Source of the DNA: Sinorhizobium sp. 8-89
GTDB lineage: Bacteria > Pseudomonadota > Alphaproteobacteria > Rhizobiales > Rhizobiaceae
DNA length: 64,000 nucleotides
Assembly (NCBI RefSeq): GCF_030124325.1
Contig: NZ_JASKLR010000005.1
Location: 248,001 to 312,000 of the forward strand
Direction of reading: 5' to 3'
Shown here: piece after piece, positions 13,318 to 51,789 of the stretch
How positions within the stretch are numbered: position 1 is the stretch's first letter
Layout: each line of letters opens with the position of its first letter
Notes under the pieces: model-generated
The model's input: the letters and a program-made list of their open reading frames with translations, nothing else
What the model was told of the DNA's origin: nothing
Databases searched by the model: none
Made by a program: the position numbers and the translations under genes

Positions 13318-13404
13318 GGATGAGCTCCAGCCATATCCGTATCGTTCGGCGATTGGGTGGAAAAGCGTTTGCAGCGGCTTTCGTTCCGTTCAACTCGCCC
13401 GAAC

Positions 13405-13418
13405 GTTTCACGTGAATC
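13405..13418. other. parS-like site, intergenic
   Basis: GTTTCACGTGAATC differs by one base from the palindromic core GTTTCACGTGAAAC bound by chromosomal ParB proteins. It lies between htpX and the divergent SdhAF4 gene, about 12 kb from parB. Confidence 0.6.
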
Positions 13419-13503
13419 AGGGTTTCCGTTCGCACGGAAGCGCTTATATGATGGGGATAAATCTTCCGCTCTTCAATATCGTTACGGAAAGCCGGACCGC
13501 CAG

Positions 13504-18372: not shown

Positions 18373-20280
18373 TCAAAGGCCGATGCCCTTGGCATGAAGC
18401 GCCGCCGTGATCTCGTCGAGGATCGCCGGGTCATCGATCGTCGCCGGCATCTTCCACGGCTGGCGGTCAGCGATCTTCTGGATCGTTGCCCTGAGGATCT
18501 TGCCGGATCGCGTCTTCGGCAATCGCTTGACGCAGATCGCCGTCCTGAAGGCGGCGACCGGCCCGATACGCTCCCGCACGAGACCAATGACTTCCTTTTC
18601 GATTTCCGACGTTTCACGGGAAACATTGGAATTGATCACCAGGAAACCGGCCGGGATCTGCCCCTTCAGCGGATCGGCAATGCCGATCACCGCGCATTCC
18701 GCCACGTCCGGATGGCTGGCGCAGACCTCTTCCATCGCGCCGGTCGACAGACGGTGGCCGGCGACGTTGATGATATCGTCGGTGCGGGCCATGATGAAGA
18801 TGTAGCCGTCCTCGTCGACATAGCCGGCGTCCGCGGTCTTGTAGTAGCCGGGATATTCGTTGAGGTAGGCCGCATGGAAGCGATCGTCGGCGTTCCAGAG
18901 AGTCGGCAGGCAACCGGGCGGAAGCGGCAGCTTGACCACCACGTTGCCCAGAGTGCCAGCCCCCACCGGATGCCCGGCATCGTCGAGGACCTGCACGTCA
19001 TAACCGGGCAGGGGAACGGCCGGAGAGCCGTATTTCACAGGCAGCAGCCCAAGACCTAGCGGATTTCCGGCGACCGGCCATCCCGTTTCCGTTTGCCACC
19101 AATGGTCGATGACCGGAACGCCCAGCGCCCGCTCGGCCCACTGGATCGTGTCCGGGTCCGCCCGTTCGCCGGCAAGGTAAAGTGCGCGGAAGCGTGAAAG
19201 GTCGTAGCGGACCACGTGGGCGGCCTCGGGATCCTCCTTGCGGATTGCGCGCAATGCCGTCGGCGCGGTGAACATGACCGCGACGCCATGCTCGGCGATG
19301 ATGCGCCAATAGGTTCCGGGATCCGGCGTGCCGACCGGCTTGCCCTCGAAGAGAATAGAGGTGTTGCCGTTGAGGAGTGGCCCATAGACGATATAGGAGT
19401 GTCCGACCACCCAACCGATGTCGGAAGCCGCCCAGAAGACTTCGCCCGGCCGAACGCCGAAAAAATTCTCCATCGACCATTTCAGCGCGACCATGTGGCC
19501 GCCATTGTCGCGCACGACGCCTTTCGGCTGCCCCGTGGTTCCGGAGGTATAGAGAACGTAAAGCGGATCGGTCGATGCGACGGGGGCGCATGGCTCCGTT
19601 TCGCCGGCCTCCTTGGCCGCCGCGAGCGCCTCGGTGAAATCGATGTCGCGTCCGGCAACCATGCCGGCGGCCAGCATGTCGCGCTGAAAGATCAGGCAAT
19701 GGGCCGGCTTGTTTGCTGCAATTTCGATTGCCGCATCGAGAAGCGGCTTGTAGGCGACCGTGCGGCCAGGCTCGATACCGCAACTTGCCGAGACGACGAG
19801 CTTCGCCTGGCAATCGTCGATGCGCACCGCAAGCTCGTTGGCGGCAAAACCGCCGAAGACGACCGAATGCACCGCGCCGATCCGCGCGGCGGCGAGCATT
19901 GCCACCGCCGCCTGCGGGATCATCGGCATATAGATGATGATCCTGTCGCCCTTGCCGACCCCAAGATTGCGGTAGACCGAAGCCATCGCCGTCACGTCGG
20001 TCAACAGTTCCGCATAGGAGATCTTTTCGATCCGGCCCGTGACGGGGCTGTCGTAGATGAAGGCGGGCTGTACCCCGCGACCCGCTTCCACATGGCGGTC
20101 GAGACAATTATAGCAGGTGTTCGTCACGCCGTCGGGAAACCAGTGTCCATAGGTTCCGCGCTCGGACTCGAAAACGCGCTCGGGCGGCTGGAACCAGTCG
20201 ACCGCTCCGGCGGCATCGGCCCAAAATCCATGTGGATCCGATTTCCACGCGGCATACACTTCGGAATAGCGGCTCGCCAT
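18373..20280 (-). CDS. prpE: Propionyl-CoA synthetase (PrpE-like)
   Basis: A 635-residue AMP-forming acyl-CoA synthetase. Motifs: VLYTSGTTGQPKGVVRDNGG, DHWWQTETGWPVAGNPLG, YYKTADAGYVDEDGYIFIMA with RTDDIINVAGHRLSTGAMEE, and [10 protein letters not shown] with the catalytic lysine. The N-terminus SRYSEVYAAWKSDPHGFWAD and the VVRDNGGH variant favour propionyl-CoA synthetase over acetyl-CoA synthetase. It would activate propionate or other short acids for the methylmalonyl-CoA route. The ATG at 20280 has GGAGGAGA at a good distance; a longer reading frame upstream adds 50 unlike residues. A parS-like 14-mer is embedded in the codons for NVSRETS near the C-terminus. Confidence 0.9.
   Translation of the reverse strand: MASRYSEVYAAWKSDPHGFWADAAGAVDWFQPPERVFESERGTYGHWFPDGVTNTCYNCLDRHVEAGRGVQPAFIYDSPVTGRIEKISYAELLTDVTAMASVYRNLGVGKGDRIIIYMPMIPQAAVAMLAAARIGAVHSVVFGGFAANELAVRIDDCQAKLVVSASCGIEPGRTVAYKPLLDAAIEIAANKPAHCLIFQRDMLAAGMVAGRDIDFTEALAAAKEAGETEPCAPVASTDPLYVLYTSGTTGQPKGVVRDNGGHMVALKWSMENFFGVRPGEVFWAASDIGWVVGHSYIVYGPLLNGNTSILFEGKPVGTPDPGTYWRIIAEHGVAVMFTAPTALRAIRKEDPEAAHVVRYDLSRFRALYLAGERADPDTIQWAERALGVPVIDHWWQTETGWPVAGNPLGLGLLPVKYGSPAVPLPGYDVQVLDDAGHPVGAGTLGNVVVKLPLPPGCLPTLWNADDRFHAAYLNEYPGYYKTADAGYVDEDGYIFIMARTDDIINVAGHRLSTGAMEEVCASHPDVAECAVIGIADPLKGQIPAGFLVINSNVSRETSEIEKEVIGLVRERIGPVAAFRTAICVKRLPKTRSGKILRATIQKIADRQPWKMPATIDDPAILDEITAALHAKGIGL
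18611..18624. other. parS-like site inside prpE
   Basis: GTTTCACGGGAAAC is one base from the parS core, the change falling in the central CACGTG. It encodes the VSRET peptide of PrpE on the minus strand. It is weaker than the sites near parAB because the centre is altered. Confidence 0.4.
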
Positions 20281-25893: not shown

Positions 25894-26781
25894 TCAGCGG
25901 CGCTCCAGCAGCCGGCAAATCTCTTCGAGCTGGTCGAGCGTCTTGTAGGCGATACGCAGGTGCCCGCCGGAAGCCTTGTGGCTGACGGTAACTTCGAGCC
26001 CGAGGCTGTCCGACAGTGTGCGCTCCAGCGCCAGCGTGTCGGCATCCTTCTCCTCGCGGCGCGGTGCTTTGGCGAAGTTCGGATCGTTCTGCGCCCGGAT
26101 ATCGTTCTGCGCAAGGCGCTCCGCCTCGCGCACGGAGAGCCCCTTCGCAACGATGTTGCGCGCCAAGGCCACCGGGTCCGACGTCGGAATCAGAGCGCGC
26201 GCATGGCCGGCCGACAGGCTGCCGTCGGAGAGCATGTCACGCACGGGCTCCGGCAGCTTCAGCAAACGGAGGCTATTGGCGACGTGACTGCGGCTCTTGC
26301 CGATGATGTCACCGAGATCGTTTTGCGTATATCCATGTTCGGCAATCAGTTGCTCGTAGCCCAAGGCTTCTTCGAGCGGATTGAGGTCGGATCGCTGGAC
26401 GTTCTCGACGATCGCAATTTCCAACGCGGTGCGATCATCCACATCCCGAACGATCACCGGGATCTCGGTAAAGCCCGCAAGCTGGGCCGCCCGCCAACGG
26501 CGTTCGCCGGCAATGATCTCGTAGCGGTCATGACCGACGGTGCGGACGACGACAGGCTGCACGATCCCGTGCTGTCGGATCGAACTCGCTAGATCCTGCA
26601 GTTCGGCCTCGTCAAACTGGCGACGGGGGTTACGGGGATTGCGCGACACAAACTCGATCGGCACGCGGCGGTCGGGATTGAGCGGCGCCTGCGGCGCGCC
26701 ACTTTGCAACGGCTGATCCATCTCGCCGATCAATGCCGCAAGACCGCGGCCCAGACGCCTTTTCGAGCTGTCGTCGTTCAT
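25894..26781 (-). CDS. parB: Chromosome-partitioning protein ParB
   Basis: A 295-residue ParB/Spo0J protein that loads on parS sites and spreads as a CTP-dependent clamp. The N-terminus (KRRLGRGLAALIGEMD) is the ParA-stimulating segment; the CTP-binding domain shows NPRNPRRQFDEAELQDLASS and IIAGERRWRAAQLAG (box II); the DNA-binding helix-turn-helix is YTQNDLGDIIGKSRSHVANS followed by LRLLKLP. The C-terminal dimerisation domain ends LEEICRLLERR. It lies 33 bases after parA in the mnmG-rsmG-parA-parB order, within 10 kb of oriC and close to several parS-like sites. Confidence 0.97.
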   Translation of the reverse strand: MNDDSSKRRLGRGLAALIGEMDQPLQSGAPQAPLNPDRRVPIEFVSRNPRNPRRQFDEAELQDLASSIRQHGIVQPVVVRTVGHDRYEIIAGERRWRAAQLAGFTEIPVIVRDVDDRTALEIAIVENVQRSDLNPLEEALGYEQLIAEHGYTQNDLGDIIGKSRSHVANSLRLLKLPEPVRDMLSDGSLSAGHARALIPTSDPVALARNIVAKGLSVREAERLAQNDIRAQNDPNFAKAPRREEKDADTLALERTLSDSLGLEVTVSHKASGGHLRIAYKTLDQLEEICRLLERR

Positions 26782-26814: not shown

Positions 26815-27609
26815 TTATGCCGCCTTGCGTTGCCGCTCGCGCTGGATCACTTCGGACGCCAATTGCAGATATGCCTGGCTTCCGGCGCACTTCAGATCAT
26901 AAAGGATGGCCGGTTTGCCATAGGAAGGCGCCTCTGAAACCCGGACATTTCGCGGAATCAAGGTGTGATAGACCTTGTCACCAAGATGGGTGCGAACATC
27001 GCTCACGACCTGCTGAGCGAGATTGTTGCGGGAATCGAACATCGTCAGCACGATGCCTTGAATGTCCAAGCTCGGATTCACCGTCCGACGCACCTGATCG
27101 ACGGTCTCCAGCAATTGACTCAGCCCTTCCAGCGCAAAAAATTCGCACTGCAGCGGGACAAGCACGGAATGCGCTGCGGCCATCGCATTCATCGTCAGCA
27201 GATTGAAGGAGGGAGGGCAATCGACCAGAACGTAGGAATAAGCGAGGGCCTCGCTCCCCGCCAGTGCCTTACGAAGCCGAAAGACACGGTCGGGCTCTCG
27301 TGCGATCTCCATTTCGAGACCAAGTAGATCCATGGTCGAAGGCACGATCGACAGGTTCGGCACCGCCGTGCTTTGGGCGATATCGCCGACCGAATGCGTT
27401 CCTATCATCAATTCATAGGACGACAGGTGACGGTCGCGGCGCTGGATCCCGAGACCCGTGCTGGCATTCCCCTGCGGATCGAGATCGACAATCAGGACTT
27501 TCTCGCCAATTGCGGCCAAAGCGGTCGCAAGATTAATGGCGGTCGTCGTTTTTCCGACTCCGCCTTTCTGGTTGGCAATTGTGATAATCCGATTTCTAGG
27601 GCCAAACAT
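26815..27609 (-). CDS. parA: Chromosome-partitioning ATPase ParA
   Basis: A 264-residue deviant Walker-type ATPase that binds DNA with ATP and positions ParB-parS complexes. Motifs: IITIANQKGGVGKTTTAINL (deviant Walker A with the signature lysine), VLIVDLDPQGNASTGLGI (switch I), YVLVDCPPSFNLLTMNAMAA (Walker B), and FSALEGL-type EFFALEGLSQLLETV. The ATG at 27609 has GGCGAG upstream and gives the usual length; a GTG at 27627 that overlaps the rsmG stop (GTGA) is an alternative. Co-transcribed with rsmG and parB. Confidence 0.96.
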   Translation of the reverse strand: MFGPRNRIITIANQKGGVGKTTTAINLATALAAIGEKVLIVDLDPQGNASTGLGIQRRDRHLSSYELMIGTHSVGDIAQSTAVPNLSIVPSTMDLLGLEMEIAREPDRVFRLRKALAGSEALAYSYVLVDCPPSFNLLTMNAMAAAHSVLVPLQCEFFALEGLSQLLETVDQVRRTVNPSLDIQGIVLTMFDSRNNLAQQVVSDVRTHLGDKVYHTLIPRNVRVSEAPSYGKPAILYDLKCAGSQAYLQLASEVIQRERQRKAA

Positions 27610-27623
27610 GTTTCGCTCGCCTA

Positions 27624-28265
27624 TCACTTCGTCCGACGTGAAAGATTTGCAATCTCGAGCACGACCGAATCTGGCTCGACGACACTCGCATGTTTTACCA
27701 GATCGAATTGAAACCGGCTAACGGCTTTGTCGATTTCCTGCTGGTAATCCCGCCCTTTATGGAAAAATGCCACCGCATTGGCGCCTTCACCGAGCATCCA
27801 GGGTGCACAATAATCCAGCAAATGGCTCAAATCCGCGAGTGCGCGCGCCGAAATAGCATCGCAATAGGGTATGATTGCACTCGCATTCTCGATTCGAACC
27901 GGATGCACGGAGCCGCGCGCGCCAGTTTCATTCAGAGCCACGCGCAGAAATGCGCATTTCTTGTTGTTGCTTTCCACCAGGTGAACCCAGCCGTCGCCGA
28001 GTTCCGACAGACAGATTGCCGTTATCACACCCGGAAAACCACCGCCGCTGCCGAGGTCGACCCAAGTCTTCGGGGTGGGGGACAGTCGGAAGATCTGCAG
28101 GCTATCGATGATATGGCGCCGCCACAGATCCTCCAGCGTCGACGGCGCGACGAGGTTGATGGACTTCGCCCATTTTCGAAACAAGGCGCCAAAGTGTTCC
28201 AGCTTCTCGACCGTTTCACGTGAAACACGCAATCCGTTCAAGCTTTCGGCCAGACTCGTTTTCAT
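27624..28265 (-). CDS. rsmG: 16S rRNA m7G527 methyltransferase RsmG
   Basis: A 213-residue Rossmann methyltransferase (formerly GidB) that makes m7G at position 527 of 16S rRNA. The SAM motif is [20 protein letters not shown]; other family words are [10 protein letters not shown]-like [36 protein letters not shown] and [20 protein letters not shown]. The ATG at 28265 overlaps the mnmG stop as ATGA. The codons for RVSRETV near the N-terminus contain a perfect parS core, so the protein sequence and a segregation site are read from the same bases. Confidence 0.96.
28213..28226. other. parS site inside rsmG
   Basis: GTTTCACGTGAAAC is the perfect palindromic parS core, 0.6 kb upstream of parA and within the 5' codons of rsmG. 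Confidence 0.85.
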
Positions 28266-30145: not shown

Positions 30146-30199
30146 TCCAATCTCCAGCTATAAAGCCTGATTCTGAATTTCAATCTATCGAGTCAAGTG

Positions 30200-30213
30200 G
30201 TTTCACGTGAAAC
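30200..30213. other. parS site, intergenic
   Basis: GTTTCACGTGAAAC, the perfect core, sits in the 109-base gap between mnmE and mnmG. Confidence 0.85.
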
Positions 30214-30254
30214 GCTGTGAATGACTCGCTGACGCGGTATCTGGCCCGGTCTAC

Positions 30255-31580: not shown

Positions 31581-31960
31581 AGCGGCTACCGGGCATCCCA
31601 AGCGCACTGCATAGTGCCGCGAGCTCGGTTCGATTTCTGTCGTTGAGGGTTAGAGCGGCTGCTTCGTTGAACGGCATCGTCTTCGTTCTGCCAAGCAACT
31701 CTCGCCATTTCTGCACAGGATGCAGAGCGCCGCGACTTATGCACCTCGCGGCGCCGGAAATCAAGTATCTCACAACGGCGCCACCATTCATGCGAAACGC
31801 GAGCCGCGTGTTTCACGTGAATCATCGTGGCGAACGGGCACGCGCGCAACATGTGTTCACGCCGAATCCGGCCAAGGAAACTCCACGGAATACCGCAAAT
31901 GAAAATGGCCGAGACGCGACGCGCCTTGGCCATTTGAAATCCGAGAAACTCGAAAAGTTA
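31581..31960. other. mnmE-rho intergenic region
   Basis: This 380-base stretch has no reading frame with recognisable protein similarity. It must hold the mnmE promoter and the 3' end of rho. The only distinct signal I see is the parS-like site at 31810-31823. Confidence 0.5.
31810..31823. other. parS-like site, intergenic
   Basis: GTTTCACGTGAATC, one base off the core, between mnmE and rho. Confidence 0.7.
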
Positions 31961-33422: not shown

Positions 33423-33965
33423 TCAAAATGGTTTCACCACGACCATGATGACGATGAGAATCATCAGCAGTGTCGGTGCTTCGTTCATCAGCCGCCAGTA
33501 GCGAGCATCGCGGTGATTCTCGTCACGCTCGAAAGCTTTCACCGCGCGGCTGAAATGCATGTGCACGATCGTCAGCAGCACGACGAAAAACAGCTTGGCG
33601 TGCAGCCAGCCGCCCTGAAAGCCATAAACGCTCCAGGCAAGATAAAGGCCGAGTGCCCACGAGATCATCATCGCCGGGTTCATGATGACCTTCAGCAAGC
33701 GCTGCTCCATCATCTTGAACGTTTCGGACTGCGCCGATCCCGGCGCCGCGTCGGTGTGGTAGATGAAGAGGCGCGGCATGTAGAGAAGCGCTGCCATCCA
33801 GGATATGACCGCAATGACGTGCAGCGCCTTGATCCAAAGGTAGAGATCGTCCGGCTGCAGCACGAAGAGGCCGATCAGCAGCAGGGCAAGGGCGGAGAGG
33901 GCGATCCAGGCGCGCAGGCGCGCCCTGTTCCCCGGGCCGCTGTCGGTCTGGCGCTCCACCATCAT
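33423..33965 (-). CDS. hemJ: Protoporphyrinogen oxidase HemJ
   Basis: A 180-residue membrane protein of the HemJ (UPF0093) family, which oxidises protoporphyrinogen IX in bacteria lacking HemG/HemY. It has about four membrane segments. Conserved histidine and lysine positions for heme appear in [30 protein letters not shown] and [20 protein letters not shown]. Its ATG overlaps the hemE stop as ATGA, so the two heme genes are coupled. The transcript is read from hemE, with its start at the oriC border. Confidence 0.93.
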
Positions 33966-34993
33966 CGTCTCCCGCGGACCCGCGAAACCAGCGCCGCGAC
34001 GTGCTCCGGGTCCGCCTGCGGCGTAATCCCATGGCCCAGATTGAAGATCAGCGGCCCGTTTCCGAGCACATCGAGGATCCGGTCAATTCCGCTTTCCAAA
34101 GCGGCGCCGCCGGCGACGACCCGCATCGGATCCAGATTCCCTTGGACAGGGCCATCCTTCTGCAGCTCGGCCGCAAACGACAGGGGCACCGACCAGTCGA
34201 GCCCGATCGCGTCAGCGCGGGTCGACTGCCGATAATCCTTGAGCAAGAGCCCCGCGCCCTTTGCGAAGGCAATGACCTTGGCTGCCGGTCGCCTCGCGCG
34301 AACGGAAGCGATCATCCGCCGGACGGGCTCGACGGCAAAACGGGCGAATTCCTCCTCGCCCAGCACACCCGCCCAGGAATCGAAGATTTGCACCGCATCC
34401 GCACCCGCGTCGATCTGCTCCACCAGATAGTCCGCCGAAATGTCGGCCAGGAACGCCAGCAGATCGTCGAACGCTTTCGGGTAGCGATAGGCGAATTGAC
34501 GGGCAGGAGCCTGATCCGGCGTCCCGTGCCCGGCGATCATATAGGTCGCTACGGTCCATGGTGCGCCACAGAAACCAAGCAGCGTCGTCTCCGCCGGCAA
34601 CTCCCGACGCAGCCGCGAAACCGTCTCGAACACCGGCCGCAGGTGATCGGAGACGCCGGCCGCGCTCAGCCGCGCAATTCCGTCGGCGTCGATCGGATCC
34701 ATCTTCGGCCCGTGACCTTCCTCGAAGCGCACATTCCGGTGAAGTGCATCCGGGATCACGAGGATATCGGAAAAGAGGATTGCAGCGTCGAAAGCATATC
34801 GCCGGATCGGCTGCAATGTCACTTCCACGGCCAGTTCGGGGGTGTAGCAGAGATCGAGGAAGCTTCCGGCCTTCGCCCGCGTCTCACGATATTCCGGGAG
34901 GTAACGTCCCGCCTGGCGCATGAGCCAGATCGGTGGAGGTGTGAGACATTTCCCGGCCAGCACTTCTAGGACCTTACGGCGTTTCACGCTCAC
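33962..34993 (-). CDS. hemE: Uroporphyrinogen decarboxylase
   Basis: A 343-residue enzyme converting uroporphyrinogen III to coproporphyrinogen III. The N-terminal substrate-binding [20 protein letters not shown], the aspartate in [41 protein letters not shown] and the C-terminal [20 protein letters not shown] are all intact. The start is GTG at 34993 (a second GTG is two codons on). It lies immediately left of the putative oriC and reads away from it, the alphaproteobacterial arrangement also seen in Caulobacter. Confidence 0.96.
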
Positions 34994-35400
34994 CCGCGCC
35001 TTCTCCCAATCTAATAATCAAACTGAATCTAAAAGGTTTCTATTTCTTAGAGTCGGTGGCTATCAAGGATTAAAATCCATCCGCAATTCATCCAGTGGTC
35101 CCGTTAGAGCCGTGCGATGCCGGGAGAAAATCGGCAATTCTCCGCAACGGAGCGAGGAAAGAGCAGAAAACATCGAAAAGTCCGACGCTTACGTGCTTCG
35201 CGAATCTTGCGCTTTCTGTGGACAACCTGTCGAACCGCGTGACATTTTGTCGTCGCCATGAGTCTTGTCCACATGAGGCGCTCGACGTTCTCCGGAAGAG
35301 GCTGGGATGTGAATAAGTCGGCGCTTTTCCACTTGCCTGAACGGCTGCCGCGCCGTTAGCTGTTTTTGTCCCGGCCTATCAACAGCCCCCGGAGAATTGC
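34994..35400. other. oriC: Probable chromosomal replication origin (oriC)
   Basis: A 407-base non-coding gap between divergent hemE and ppsR. It has an AT-rich block at about 35010-35075 (CTAATAATCAAACTGAATCT and onward) next to hemE, and DnaA-box-like 9-mers toward ppsR. The hemE-oriC-DUF299 order is the known site of the Caulobacter origin, and the S. meliloti origin has been mapped next to hemE. The genes on both sides mostly read away from it, and parAB with parS sites lie within 10 kb. Origin function is inferred from these; no replication data are available here. Confidence 0.85.
35217..35333. promoter_or_regulatory. Cluster of DnaA-box-like sites
   Basis: TGTGGACAA (35217-35225, minus) and TTGTCCACA (35265-35273, plus) are an inverted pair of one-mismatch boxes. 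TGTGAATAA (35308-35316) is a full TTATNCACA match on the minus strand, and TTTTCCACT (35325-35333) is degenerate. Confidence 0.75.
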
Positions 35401-36222
35401 GTGGAGAACCGAAAAAACTACTTCCACCTGCATCTCGTCTCCGATTCGACGGGCGAGACGCTGATTGCAGCTGGACGCGCGGCCGCGGCGCAATTCCAGT
35501 CGTCGCATGCGCTGGAGCACGTCTATCCGCTGATCCGGAACAGGAAGCAGCTGATGCAGGTGCTGGACGCGATCGATGGTGCGCCGGGCATTGTTCTTTA
35601 CACGATCGTCGACCGCGAGCTTGCAGACATCATCGATCAGCGCTGCCGCGAGATCGGCGTGCCTTGTGTCTCGGTGCTGGACCCGATCATCGATCTGTTT
35701 CAGTCTTATCTCGGCTCGCCATCCCGGCGCCGCTCGGGAGCGCAGCACGTCATGGACGCCGAGTATTTCGCCCGGATCGAGGCGCTGAACTTCACCATGG
35801 ACCATGACGATGGCCAGATGCCGGCGGATTTCGACGAGGCCGATGTCGTTCTTGTCGGCGTAAGTCGTACATCGAAGACGCCGACGAGCATCTATCTTGC
35901 CAATCGCGGCATCAAGACGGCGAACATCCCGATCGTGCCTGGCGTGCCGTTGCCGGACGGTCTGATCAACGCGACGAAACCGCTGGTGGTCGGCCTTATC
36001 GCGACCGCCGACAGGATCTCGCAGGTGCGCCAGCACCGCCTGCTCGGGACGACCCAGAGCTTCCATGGCGAACAGTATACCGACCGGGCCTCGATCGCCG
36101 AGGAGTTGAAATATGCCCGCTCGCTCTGTGCGCGCAACAATTGGCCAATGATCGACGTGACACGCCGGTCGATCGAGGAAACCGCCGCTGCGATCGTTGC
36201 CCTGCGCCCGCGGCTCAGATAG
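35401..36222 (+). CDS. ppsR: Kinase/pyrophosphorylase, DUF299 (PpsR family)
   Basis: A 273-residue protein of the DUF299 family, whose members phosphorylate and dephosphorylate PEP synthase or pyruvate phosphate dikinase using ADP. Family words: [20 protein letters not shown], the P-loop-like [19 protein letters not shown], and [14 protein letters not shown] at the C-terminus. The start is GTG at 35401 with CGGAG before it. In alphaproteobacteria this gene flanks oriC opposite hemE. It opens a plus-strand row with maf, aroE and coaE. Confidence 0.92.
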
Positions 36223-36251: not shown

Positions 36252-36851
36252 ATGACGACCGCACTCGTGTTGGCTTCCGCCAGTCCCTTTCGTCGCGCGC
36301 TGTTGGAAAGCGCCGGCCTGACATTTCAGGCAAGGGCCGCCAACGTGGACGAGCGGGCATTGGAGCAACCGCTCGAGGCGAGCGGCGCTTCGCCATCGGA
36401 TGTCGCGCTGGTATTGGCGGAGGCCAAGGCAAGGGATGTCGCACGGCATTTCGATGGCGCGCTCGTTATCGGCTCGGATCAGACCATGTCGCTCGGATCG
36501 CGCGTCTATCACAAGCCGAAGGACATGGCCGAAGCCGCCGACCACCTCTTTTCGCTGTCCGGCAAGACGCACAGTCTGAACAGTGCGATCGTTCTCGTCC
36601 GTGACGGCGAGGTCGTCTGGCGCCACGTTTCCTCTGCCCATATGACTGTGCGGCCGCTCACTCGGGGCTTTATCGAAAGACACCTTGCAAGGGTCGGCGA
36701 GAAGGCGCTTGCAAGCGTCGGCGCCTATCAGCTCGAAGGCGAGGGCATACAGCTTTTCGAAAAGATCGAAGGCGACTATTTCACGATTCTCGGCTTGCCG
36801 ATGCTGCCGCTCCTCTCGAAACTCCGTGACCTGGGCTCGATCGATGCGTGA
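36252..36851 (+). CDS. maf: Maf-family nucleotide pyrophosphatase
   Basis: A 199-residue Maf/HAM1-type enzyme that hydrolyses non-canonical nucleoside triphosphates. It begins with [20 protein letters not shown], the Maf signature, and shows [28 protein letters not shown] and the [20 protein letters not shown] segment. The ATG at 36252 gives the family length; the longer upstream frame overlaps ppsR. It overlaps aroE by eight bases. Confidence 0.93.
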
Positions 36852-37704
36852 TTCACGTGAAACATTTGTTAACCATGCCTTCGTCACCGGATTTCCGGTG
36901 CGGCATTCGCGCTCGCCGCTGATCCACGGCTATTGGCTGAAGGAGTTCGGGATTGCCGGCAGCTATAGGGCCTATGAGATCTCGCCGGACGGCTTTCCGG
37001 AATTCATGCTTCAACTGAAGAGCGGAGCTTCCGGTCTATGTGGCGGCAACGTGACCATTCCCCACAAGGAAGCCGCATTCCGTCTCTCCGATCGTCCGGA
37101 CGAATTGAGCGCCGAGCTCGGCGCCGCCAATACCTTGTGGCTTGAAGGCGGAGAGATCTGCGCGACGAACACCGACGGGCGAGGGTTCGTCGCCAATCTC
37201 GACGAGCGCGCGGAAGGGTGGGACAGGATTTCGACCGCCGTCGTCCTCGGCGCCGGTGGTGCAAGTCGCGCCGTGATCCAGGCGGTACGCGATCGCGGCG
37301 TCAAGGCAATCCATGTGGTAAACCGCACACCCGAGAGGGCGCAGGAACTGGCGGATCGCTTCGGCTCCGTCGTTCACGCCCACCCGCTCGAGGCCTTGCC
37401 CGAAGTGATGTCGGGCGCGCGCCTCTTCGTCAACACGACTTCACTCGGTATGGATGGCGAGCCGGCGCCAGAGATTGATTTCTCAATGATGGACGAGGGG
37501 GCGGTCGTGACGGATATTGTCTATGTGCCGCTCAAAACGCCATTGCTGCGTCAGGCCGAAGATCAGGGCTTTGCGATCGTCGACGGGCTCGGCATGCTGT
37601 TGCATCAGGCGGTGCCCGGATTCGAAAAATGGTTTGGCCGCAGGCCGGTCGTAGACGAAACCCTTCGGCAGATCATCATTCACGATATGGACAGTCACAG
37701 ATGA
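36844..37704 (+). CDS. aroE: Shikimate dehydrogenase
   Basis: A 286-residue NADPH enzyme of aromatic amino-acid synthesis (3-dehydroshikimate to shikimate). Motifs: [20 protein letters not shown] (substrate-binding Ser-x-Ser), [13 protein letters not shown] with the catalytic lysine, [11 protein letters not shown] with the catalytic aspartate, and the nucleotide motif [16 protein letters not shown] with [15 protein letters not shown]. The ATG at 36844 is inside the end of maf. A parS-like 14-mer forms codons 3-7 (the peptide DSRET), before the conserved catalytic fold. Confidence 0.96.
36850..36863. other. parS-like site at the start of aroE
   Basis: GATTCACGTGAAAC, one base from the core, spans the maf stop and the first aroE codons, 1.5 kb right of oriC. 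Confidence 0.7.
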
Positions 37705-43489: not shown

Positions 43490-45931
<2,442 letters not shown>

Positions 45932-51766: not shown

Positions 51767-51789
51767 TCTGTCTATTGTGGATAAAAGAC
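51767..51789. promoter_or_regulatory. Operator candidate, upstream of dehydratase
   Basis: A 23-bp site beginning TCTGTCTATT and ending GATAAAAGAC. It overlaps the -10 and matches the site at 54581-54603 at 18 of 23 positions. Half-sites TCTNTYT and ATAAAAGA are imperfect inverted copies. A GntR-type dimer site is inferred. Confidence 0.55.

Follow-up and report, generated by a model that had tools for sequence, protein, structure and literature searches.

Prediction of the chromosomal replication origin of a Sinorhizobium strain in the hemE-ppsR intergenic gap, with a near-invariant AT-rich block beside hemE

Using autonomous replication and DnaA binding, Sibley et al. (2006) reportedly placed the Sinorhizobium meliloti origin next to hemE. 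Published work also makes use of a 477-bp oriC of this species, SMc04880 (PMC11476347). In Caulobacter crescentus the origin, Cori, is described as a segment of 404 bp between hemE and COG1806 (ppsR) that contains an AT-rich region, DnaA boxes, five CtrA sites and one IHF site, and the same source reports CtrA sites to be few or absent in some other Alphaproteobacteria (PMC1914354). Transcription of hemE runs within Cori (PMC8959179). The published rule for sequences of the DnaA-trio basal unwinding system (BUS) calls for a DnaA box (≤ 2 mismatches), a spacer of ≤ 16 and, in the opposite strand, three or more NAN, and BUS sequences were predicted by Pelliciari et al. in 1755 of 2070 origins (PMC8287927).

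The window (the whole stretch of DNA analysed, 64,000 nucleotides of Sinorhizobium sp. 8-89) forms part of a 365,845-bp contig (C38) of a draft genome of 7.06 Mb in 103 contigs. Within it hemE and ppsR, named by NCBIfam, diverge around an intergenic gap of 407 bp (Table 1). The limits of this gap had been drawn correctly in the first-pass annotation, which had also recognized its flanks as those of the Caulobacter origin; hemE and COG1806 indeed match the flanks of Cori (PMC1914354). The PpsR proteins of the window and of Sinorhizobium psoraleae share 99% identity, which points to a Sinorhizobium/Ensifer host. The locus is like S. meliloti oriC in belonging, by sequence, to the same genus and in occupying the same hemE-ppsR gap; in S. 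meliloti 4H41 (L037) the gap measures 405 bp, is 74% identical and carries the same AT-rich block, but it reads TCATCCACA at the first box position and has no third box at ≤ 1 mismatch. The gyrB gene was seen at 43496-45931 (plus strand), 8 kb right of the predicted origin. A search of positions 34700-35700 against Rfam gave no match at E ≤ 1 and therefore detected no known RNA family, such as Caulobacter CcnA; a CcnA-like RNA may nonetheless be encoded in the gap. A terminator-like hairpin at 35340-35357 (plus strand), upstream of ppsR, was dropped, being by eye (without a pair count) not kept in relatives.

Table 1. Features of the hemE-ppsR gap and its surroundings, in window coordinates; identity is mean column identity.
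Feature	Position	Strand	Basis or conservation
parB	25894-26781	-	TIGR00180, 184 bits, above cut-off
parA-type ATPase	26815-27627	-	best NCBIfam matches RepA/ParA partition ATPase models, below cut-offs
parS site CGTTTCACGTGAAACA	28212-28227	.	≤ 1 mismatch
parS site TGTTTCACGTGAATCA	31809-31824	.	≤ 1 mismatch
hemE (uroporphyrinogen decarboxylase), left flank	33962-34993	-	TIGR01464, 407 bits, above cut-off
Gap between hemE and ppsR (407 bp), predicted oriC of the chromosome	34994-35400	.	flanks, boxes, skew, parS, length
Near-invariant AT-rich block, candidate unwinding element, 39 bp, TTTCTATTTCTTAGAGTCGGTGGCTATCAAGGATTAAAA	35037-35075	+	identity 0.951
Pyrimidine-rich stretch, position of the triplet array of other orders	35037-35048	+	identity 0.975
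AGAGTC spacer, with GANTC (CcrM-type) site at 35050	35049-35054	.	identity 0.994
Degenerate DnaA-box position 1, GGTGGCTAT	35055-35063	-	alignment and motif; identity 0.898
Degenerate DnaA-box position 2, CAAGGATTA	35064-35072	-	alignment and motif; identity 0.985
DnaA box TTGTCCACA	35217-35225	-	identity 0.863
DnaA box TTGTCCACA	35265-35273	+	identity 0.887
DnaA box TTATTCACA	35308-35316	-	identity 0.940
DnaA box TTTTCCACT, one mismatch	35325-35333	+	identity 0.891
CTATCAACA, probable degenerate DnaA box near ppsR	35376-35384	+	identity 0.942
ppsR / DUF299 / COG1806, right flank	35401-36222	+	PRK05339, 345 bits, above cut-off
parS site TGATTCACGTGAAACA	36849-36864	.	≤ 1 mismatch

Fifty-nine Rhizobiaceae-type gaps (58 loci plus the window) were drawn from 80 named ppsR loci, picked by closeness of their PpsR to that of the window and not at random. 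Loci L047 and L099 were omitted from the gap sets, having no hemE on the stretch, and 30 loci (L102-L131) were kept out of the alignment and the motif sets because the genus was repeated. Gap length was 398-409 bp across the 59. A gap length fixed at ~400 bp throughout the class was considered and rejected, 56 further gaps spanning 306-1596 bp with a median of 410.5. The gap of the window shares with Cori the flanking genes, an AT-rich region and a cluster of DnaA boxes, whereas it differs from Cori in holding neither an exact CtrA site nor an IHF-consensus site. The exact CtrA site, TTAA-N7-TTAA, was found in 0 of the 59 gaps; of the two forms of the IHF consensus sought, WATCAANNNNTTR and WATCAN5WTR, neither occurs in the window gap, and the latter is matched in 7/59.

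Near-consensus DnaA boxes were defined as those with ≤ 1 mismatch to TTWTCCACA. The gap holds four, against a mean of 0.16 in dinucleotide shuffles (four in 0/2000), and it is the densest 407-bp stretch of the 365,845-bp contig, on which there are 79 such boxes in total and at best two in a stretch of this length elsewhere. The first-pass annotation had listed three of the four, at 35217 (minus), 35265 (plus) and 35308 (minus), and these stand as given; the fourth, at 35325 (plus), had been overlooked. The identities of these four (0.86-0.94) are attained by 1.3-5.7% of the 9-mers right of the AT-rich block. At least three boxes at ≤ 1 mismatch were present in 56/59 gaps and two in 3/59, with single boxes gained or lost between relatives, as at 35308, where the S. 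meliloti and S. medicae loci have none at ≤ 1 mismatch. Closer to ppsR, CTATCAACA at 35376 ranks with the best-conserved 9-mers to the right of the block in the 59-gap alignment, and it is probably a weak DnaA box since many relatives read TTATCAACA at this position. An exact TTATCCACA is absent from the gap; the sole copy in the window was seen at 51776-51784 (minus strand), 16 kb further right, and within 5 kb of it no other box at ≤ 1 mismatch occurs.

Strand skew was computed from the 19 stretches making up contig C38. The cumulative keto-skew minimum of the contig fell at window position 35186, inside the gap, and the cumulative GC-skew minimum at 36291, 0.9 kb beyond the gap; within 80 kb on either side, the sum of G minus C was -500 on the left and +822 on the right, on a contig whose skew is shallow and which is one of the 103 in the draft. 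As the contig is only part of the draft, the 3.97-Mb contig C1 of a relative (G021) was therefore sampled in 20 stretches of 20 kb along its length. In G021 the samples between 1.52 and 3.42 Mb had negative GC skew, and the sample at 3.61 Mb and those between 0 and 1.33 Mb had positive skew, except at 950 kb, the one discordant sample of the 20. The sign turns from minus to plus in the interval 3.42-3.61 Mb, which contains ppsR (3.546 Mb), and the change from plus to minus lies about opposite this locus. A skew minimum elsewhere in the chromosome had been named beforehand as an observation that would speak against an origin here; the minima of the contig lie inside the gap and just beside it, and the switch in G021 brackets ppsR.

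Sites matching parS with ≤ 1 mismatch were present at only three places in the 7.06-Mb genome, all around the gap. Among relatives, 2-4 such sites were found within about 17 kb of ppsR in 14/14 searched, with the qualification that, of the three sites in each of G002 and G016, two are ≤ 7 kb from the far contig end and are near ppsR only if the contig is circular. Two-mismatch parS-like sites were also seen at 13404-13419, 18610-18625 and 30199-30214 (none in 100 shuffles).

Taken together, the skew, the parS sites, the parS sites and skew of relatives, the nearby parB and parA-type genes, and a dnaA region free of boxes (see below) leave little doubt that positions 34994-35400 are the chromosomal oriC. 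This reading, proposed in the first-pass annotation, is further supported by the flanking genes, the box cluster and the AT-rich block, and it assigns a Sinorhizobium chromosome its origin on the basis of sequence. Counting against it are the lack of an exact TTATCCACA, of an exact CtrA site and of an IHF-consensus site in the gap, the shallow skew of a contig from a draft genome, and the discordant sample of G021. Computation gave the location, the cluster of boxes, the conservation, the switch in skew and the flanking parS sites; from these we infer that DnaA binds, in what order events run and that the block melts, as follows. DnaA would bind the boxes on the ppsR side (35217, 35265, 35308, 35325 and possibly 35376) and would then open the duplex at the AT-rich block beside hemE (35037-35075), where the degenerate boxes at 35055-35072 would position a DnaA filament alongside the AT-rich strand pair and its pyrimidine-rich stretch. 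Two replisomes would depart divergently, and ParB at the parS sites on both flanks would segregate the new origins. That the AT side would melt first, as the asymmetry of the gap had earlier suggested, receives only indirect support, from this being the most conserved 39-bp stretch and from its position, which is that of the triplet-array and DnaA-box module of other orders. As an origin the locus is ordinary for the genus; its noteworthy part is the fixed block, together with the apparent absence of a triplet array.

An AT-rich block beside hemE had been annotated at 35010-35075, and this was borne out: 69.7% of these bases are A or T, a content reached by 0.025% of the 66-bp windows along the contig. 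The near-invariance of the block had not been noted. Over 35037-35075 the mean column identity in the 59-gap alignment was 0.951, as against 0.637 for the rest of the gap and 0.808 for the best 39-bp stretch clear of the block, and the first 18 bases are identical in 45/59 gaps. GAGTC is present at the offset of 35050 in 59/59 gaps, and the gap carries four GANTC sites, as many as are found in 1% of 407-bp contig windows. Judged by alignment and motif, 35055-35063 and 35064-35072 may act as DnaA boxes; the first of these positions reads TGTGGATTA in some more distant relatives and the second CGGGGAT in other orders. Of 199 genomes in the family, 45 carry a 22-base pattern of the block (≤ 2 mismatches), with one copy each, and its reversed control was never matched; the pattern being absent at this threshold from the other 154, the block is therefore confined to part of the family. 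In the genomes with both positions known (G000, G015, G028 and G035) the pattern lies 340-365 bp upstream of ppsR. An element of 39 bp kept near-unchanged in dozens of species offers a place to study origin opening without a recognisable DnaA-trio array or CtrA sites.

More distant gaps were taken from 20 of 23 genomes with a ppsR match (2 of the same family and 18 of the same order) and from 40 further genomes (1 of the same order and 39 of other orders), the latter taken mostly by score and not at random; ppsR had been found in 99/144 genomes in the search behind this set of 40. In 56 of these 60 further Alphaproteobacteria hemE lies divergently upstream of ppsR, with a gap of < 1 kb in 55. 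Loci L165, L171, L183 and L211, with no hemE or ppsR on the stretch, and L185 (gap 1596) were omitted, and L152, being too close, took no part in motif training. In many gaps of other orders, TGTGGATAA stands a few bases behind runs of TAG/TTG/TGG triplets near hemE and leads directly into CGGGGAT, the two making up adjacent DnaA-box-like 9-mers; TNG arrays with adjacent DnaA-box-like sequences were seen near hemE in many gaps among L093-L101 and L173-L210. Runs of at least four TNG, a pattern picked after inspecting the sequences, occurred on the plus strand in 11/36 other-order gaps and on the minus strand in none (shuffles averaged 0.25 gaps); on the plus strand they occurred in 3/18 mostly same-order gaps and in 0/59 Rhizobiaceae-type gaps. 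Four or more strict NAN in a row, next to a box on the minus strand close to hemE, were found in 1/36 other-order gaps, which is the shuffle level. By position, the Rhizobiaceae block falls where other orders often have the triplet module, and intermediates such as TTATTCTTCTTAGAGTCTGTGGATTA in L088 occur in some more distant relatives, several of which are MAGs labelled Rhizobiaceae or Hyphomicrobiales.

The correspondence of block and module was scored with 44-bp motifs. The motif from set A (74 gaps, the 59 test gaps excluded) ranked the block 1 of 731,604 contig positions on both strands and placed it best in 59/59 gaps and 58/58 whole loci; among held-out gaps, 7/10 beat all 200 shuffles and the other three were equalled by 1/200. 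With set B (66 gaps, close relatives removed) the block ranked 10 and was best in 54/59 gaps. With set C (36 gaps, other orders only) it ranked 253, with 32/59 gaps, and with a variant of set C it ranked 96 at a score of -1.3, with 36/59 gaps and 124/1000 shuffles as good; this variant gave higher scores to other contig sites, among them a minus-strand site at 34974 (8.8). Direct homology between the block and the triplet module of other orders was considered and is not established, the other-order-only motif recognising the block unreliably. The correspondence therefore rests on position and on the intermediates, and the link would be bridged by more distant relatives of the order rather than be direct.

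In its layout of box, spacer and array, the BUS of Bacillus subtilis and others resembles what other alphaproteobacterial orders carry near hemE, but the Rhizobiaceae block differs from it in having no triplet array. The suggestion that the block is itself a canonical DnaA-trio BUS as in Bacillus draws on its alignment by position with those arrays and on its first rank under the set A motif. Against it, the published rule finds no match in the window gap and is matched at the block in 0/59 gaps (a triplet doublet appeared in 1/59 in the DnaA-trio scan), and the motif from other orders is unreliable for the block, so that we regard a canonical BUS as improbable. We propose instead, tentatively and as less likely than not, that in the Sinorhizobium-Rhizobium part of the Rhizobiaceae the triplet array was replaced by a fixed, non-repetitive TTTCTATTTCTTAGAGTC and two degenerate boxes; DnaA would read that element, whose GANTC might allow origins that have fired to be marked by CcrM methylation in a lineage without CtrA sites at its origins. 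Literature on the DnaA-trio with Caulobacter included, by title, none on a rhizobial origin. Alphaproteobacterial arrays may already stand in the tables of Pelliciari et al., and neither array nor block is claimed here as unpublished.

The gap could also be viewed as an ordinary divergent promoter region with chance boxes, in which the block is mainly the hemE promoter and the right-hand conserved bases form that of ppsR. Candidates for both were picked out by eye: on the minus strand, for hemE, TTGATA (35066-35061), 18 nt and TAGAAA; on the plus strand, for ppsR, TTGCCT, 17 nt and TTAGCT, kept by eye in most of 30 aligned sequences, with TTGCCT as a possible -35 that appears to overlap the box at 35325. 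Cori likewise has hemE transcription (PMC8959179). However, AGAGTC, the most conserved part of the block, sits in what would be the promoter spacer; a promoter scan reported neither pair and gave one hit, at 35271-35244 on the minus strand; and the box cluster, the skew minimum and the parS sites are left unexplained. As a full account of the gap we hold promoters to be very unlikely. Promoters would not conflict with an origin, and a hemE promoter may overlap the block and a ppsR promoter the box at 35325.

Bacterial origins usually adjoin dnaA (PMC10225481), and dnaA here lies on a separate contig, C60, but an origin at that gene, with the hemE gap only a DnaA-regulated region, has next to no likelihood, as the 3.5 kb around dnaA contain no box at ≤ 1 mismatch and no match to the 44-bp motif, and parS and skew indicate hemE. 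A second, weaker match to the DnaA domain (31 bits, over the cut-off) was observed at G000:C10:26103-26408, in an open frame of 274 aa that possibly encodes a DnaA-related regulator.
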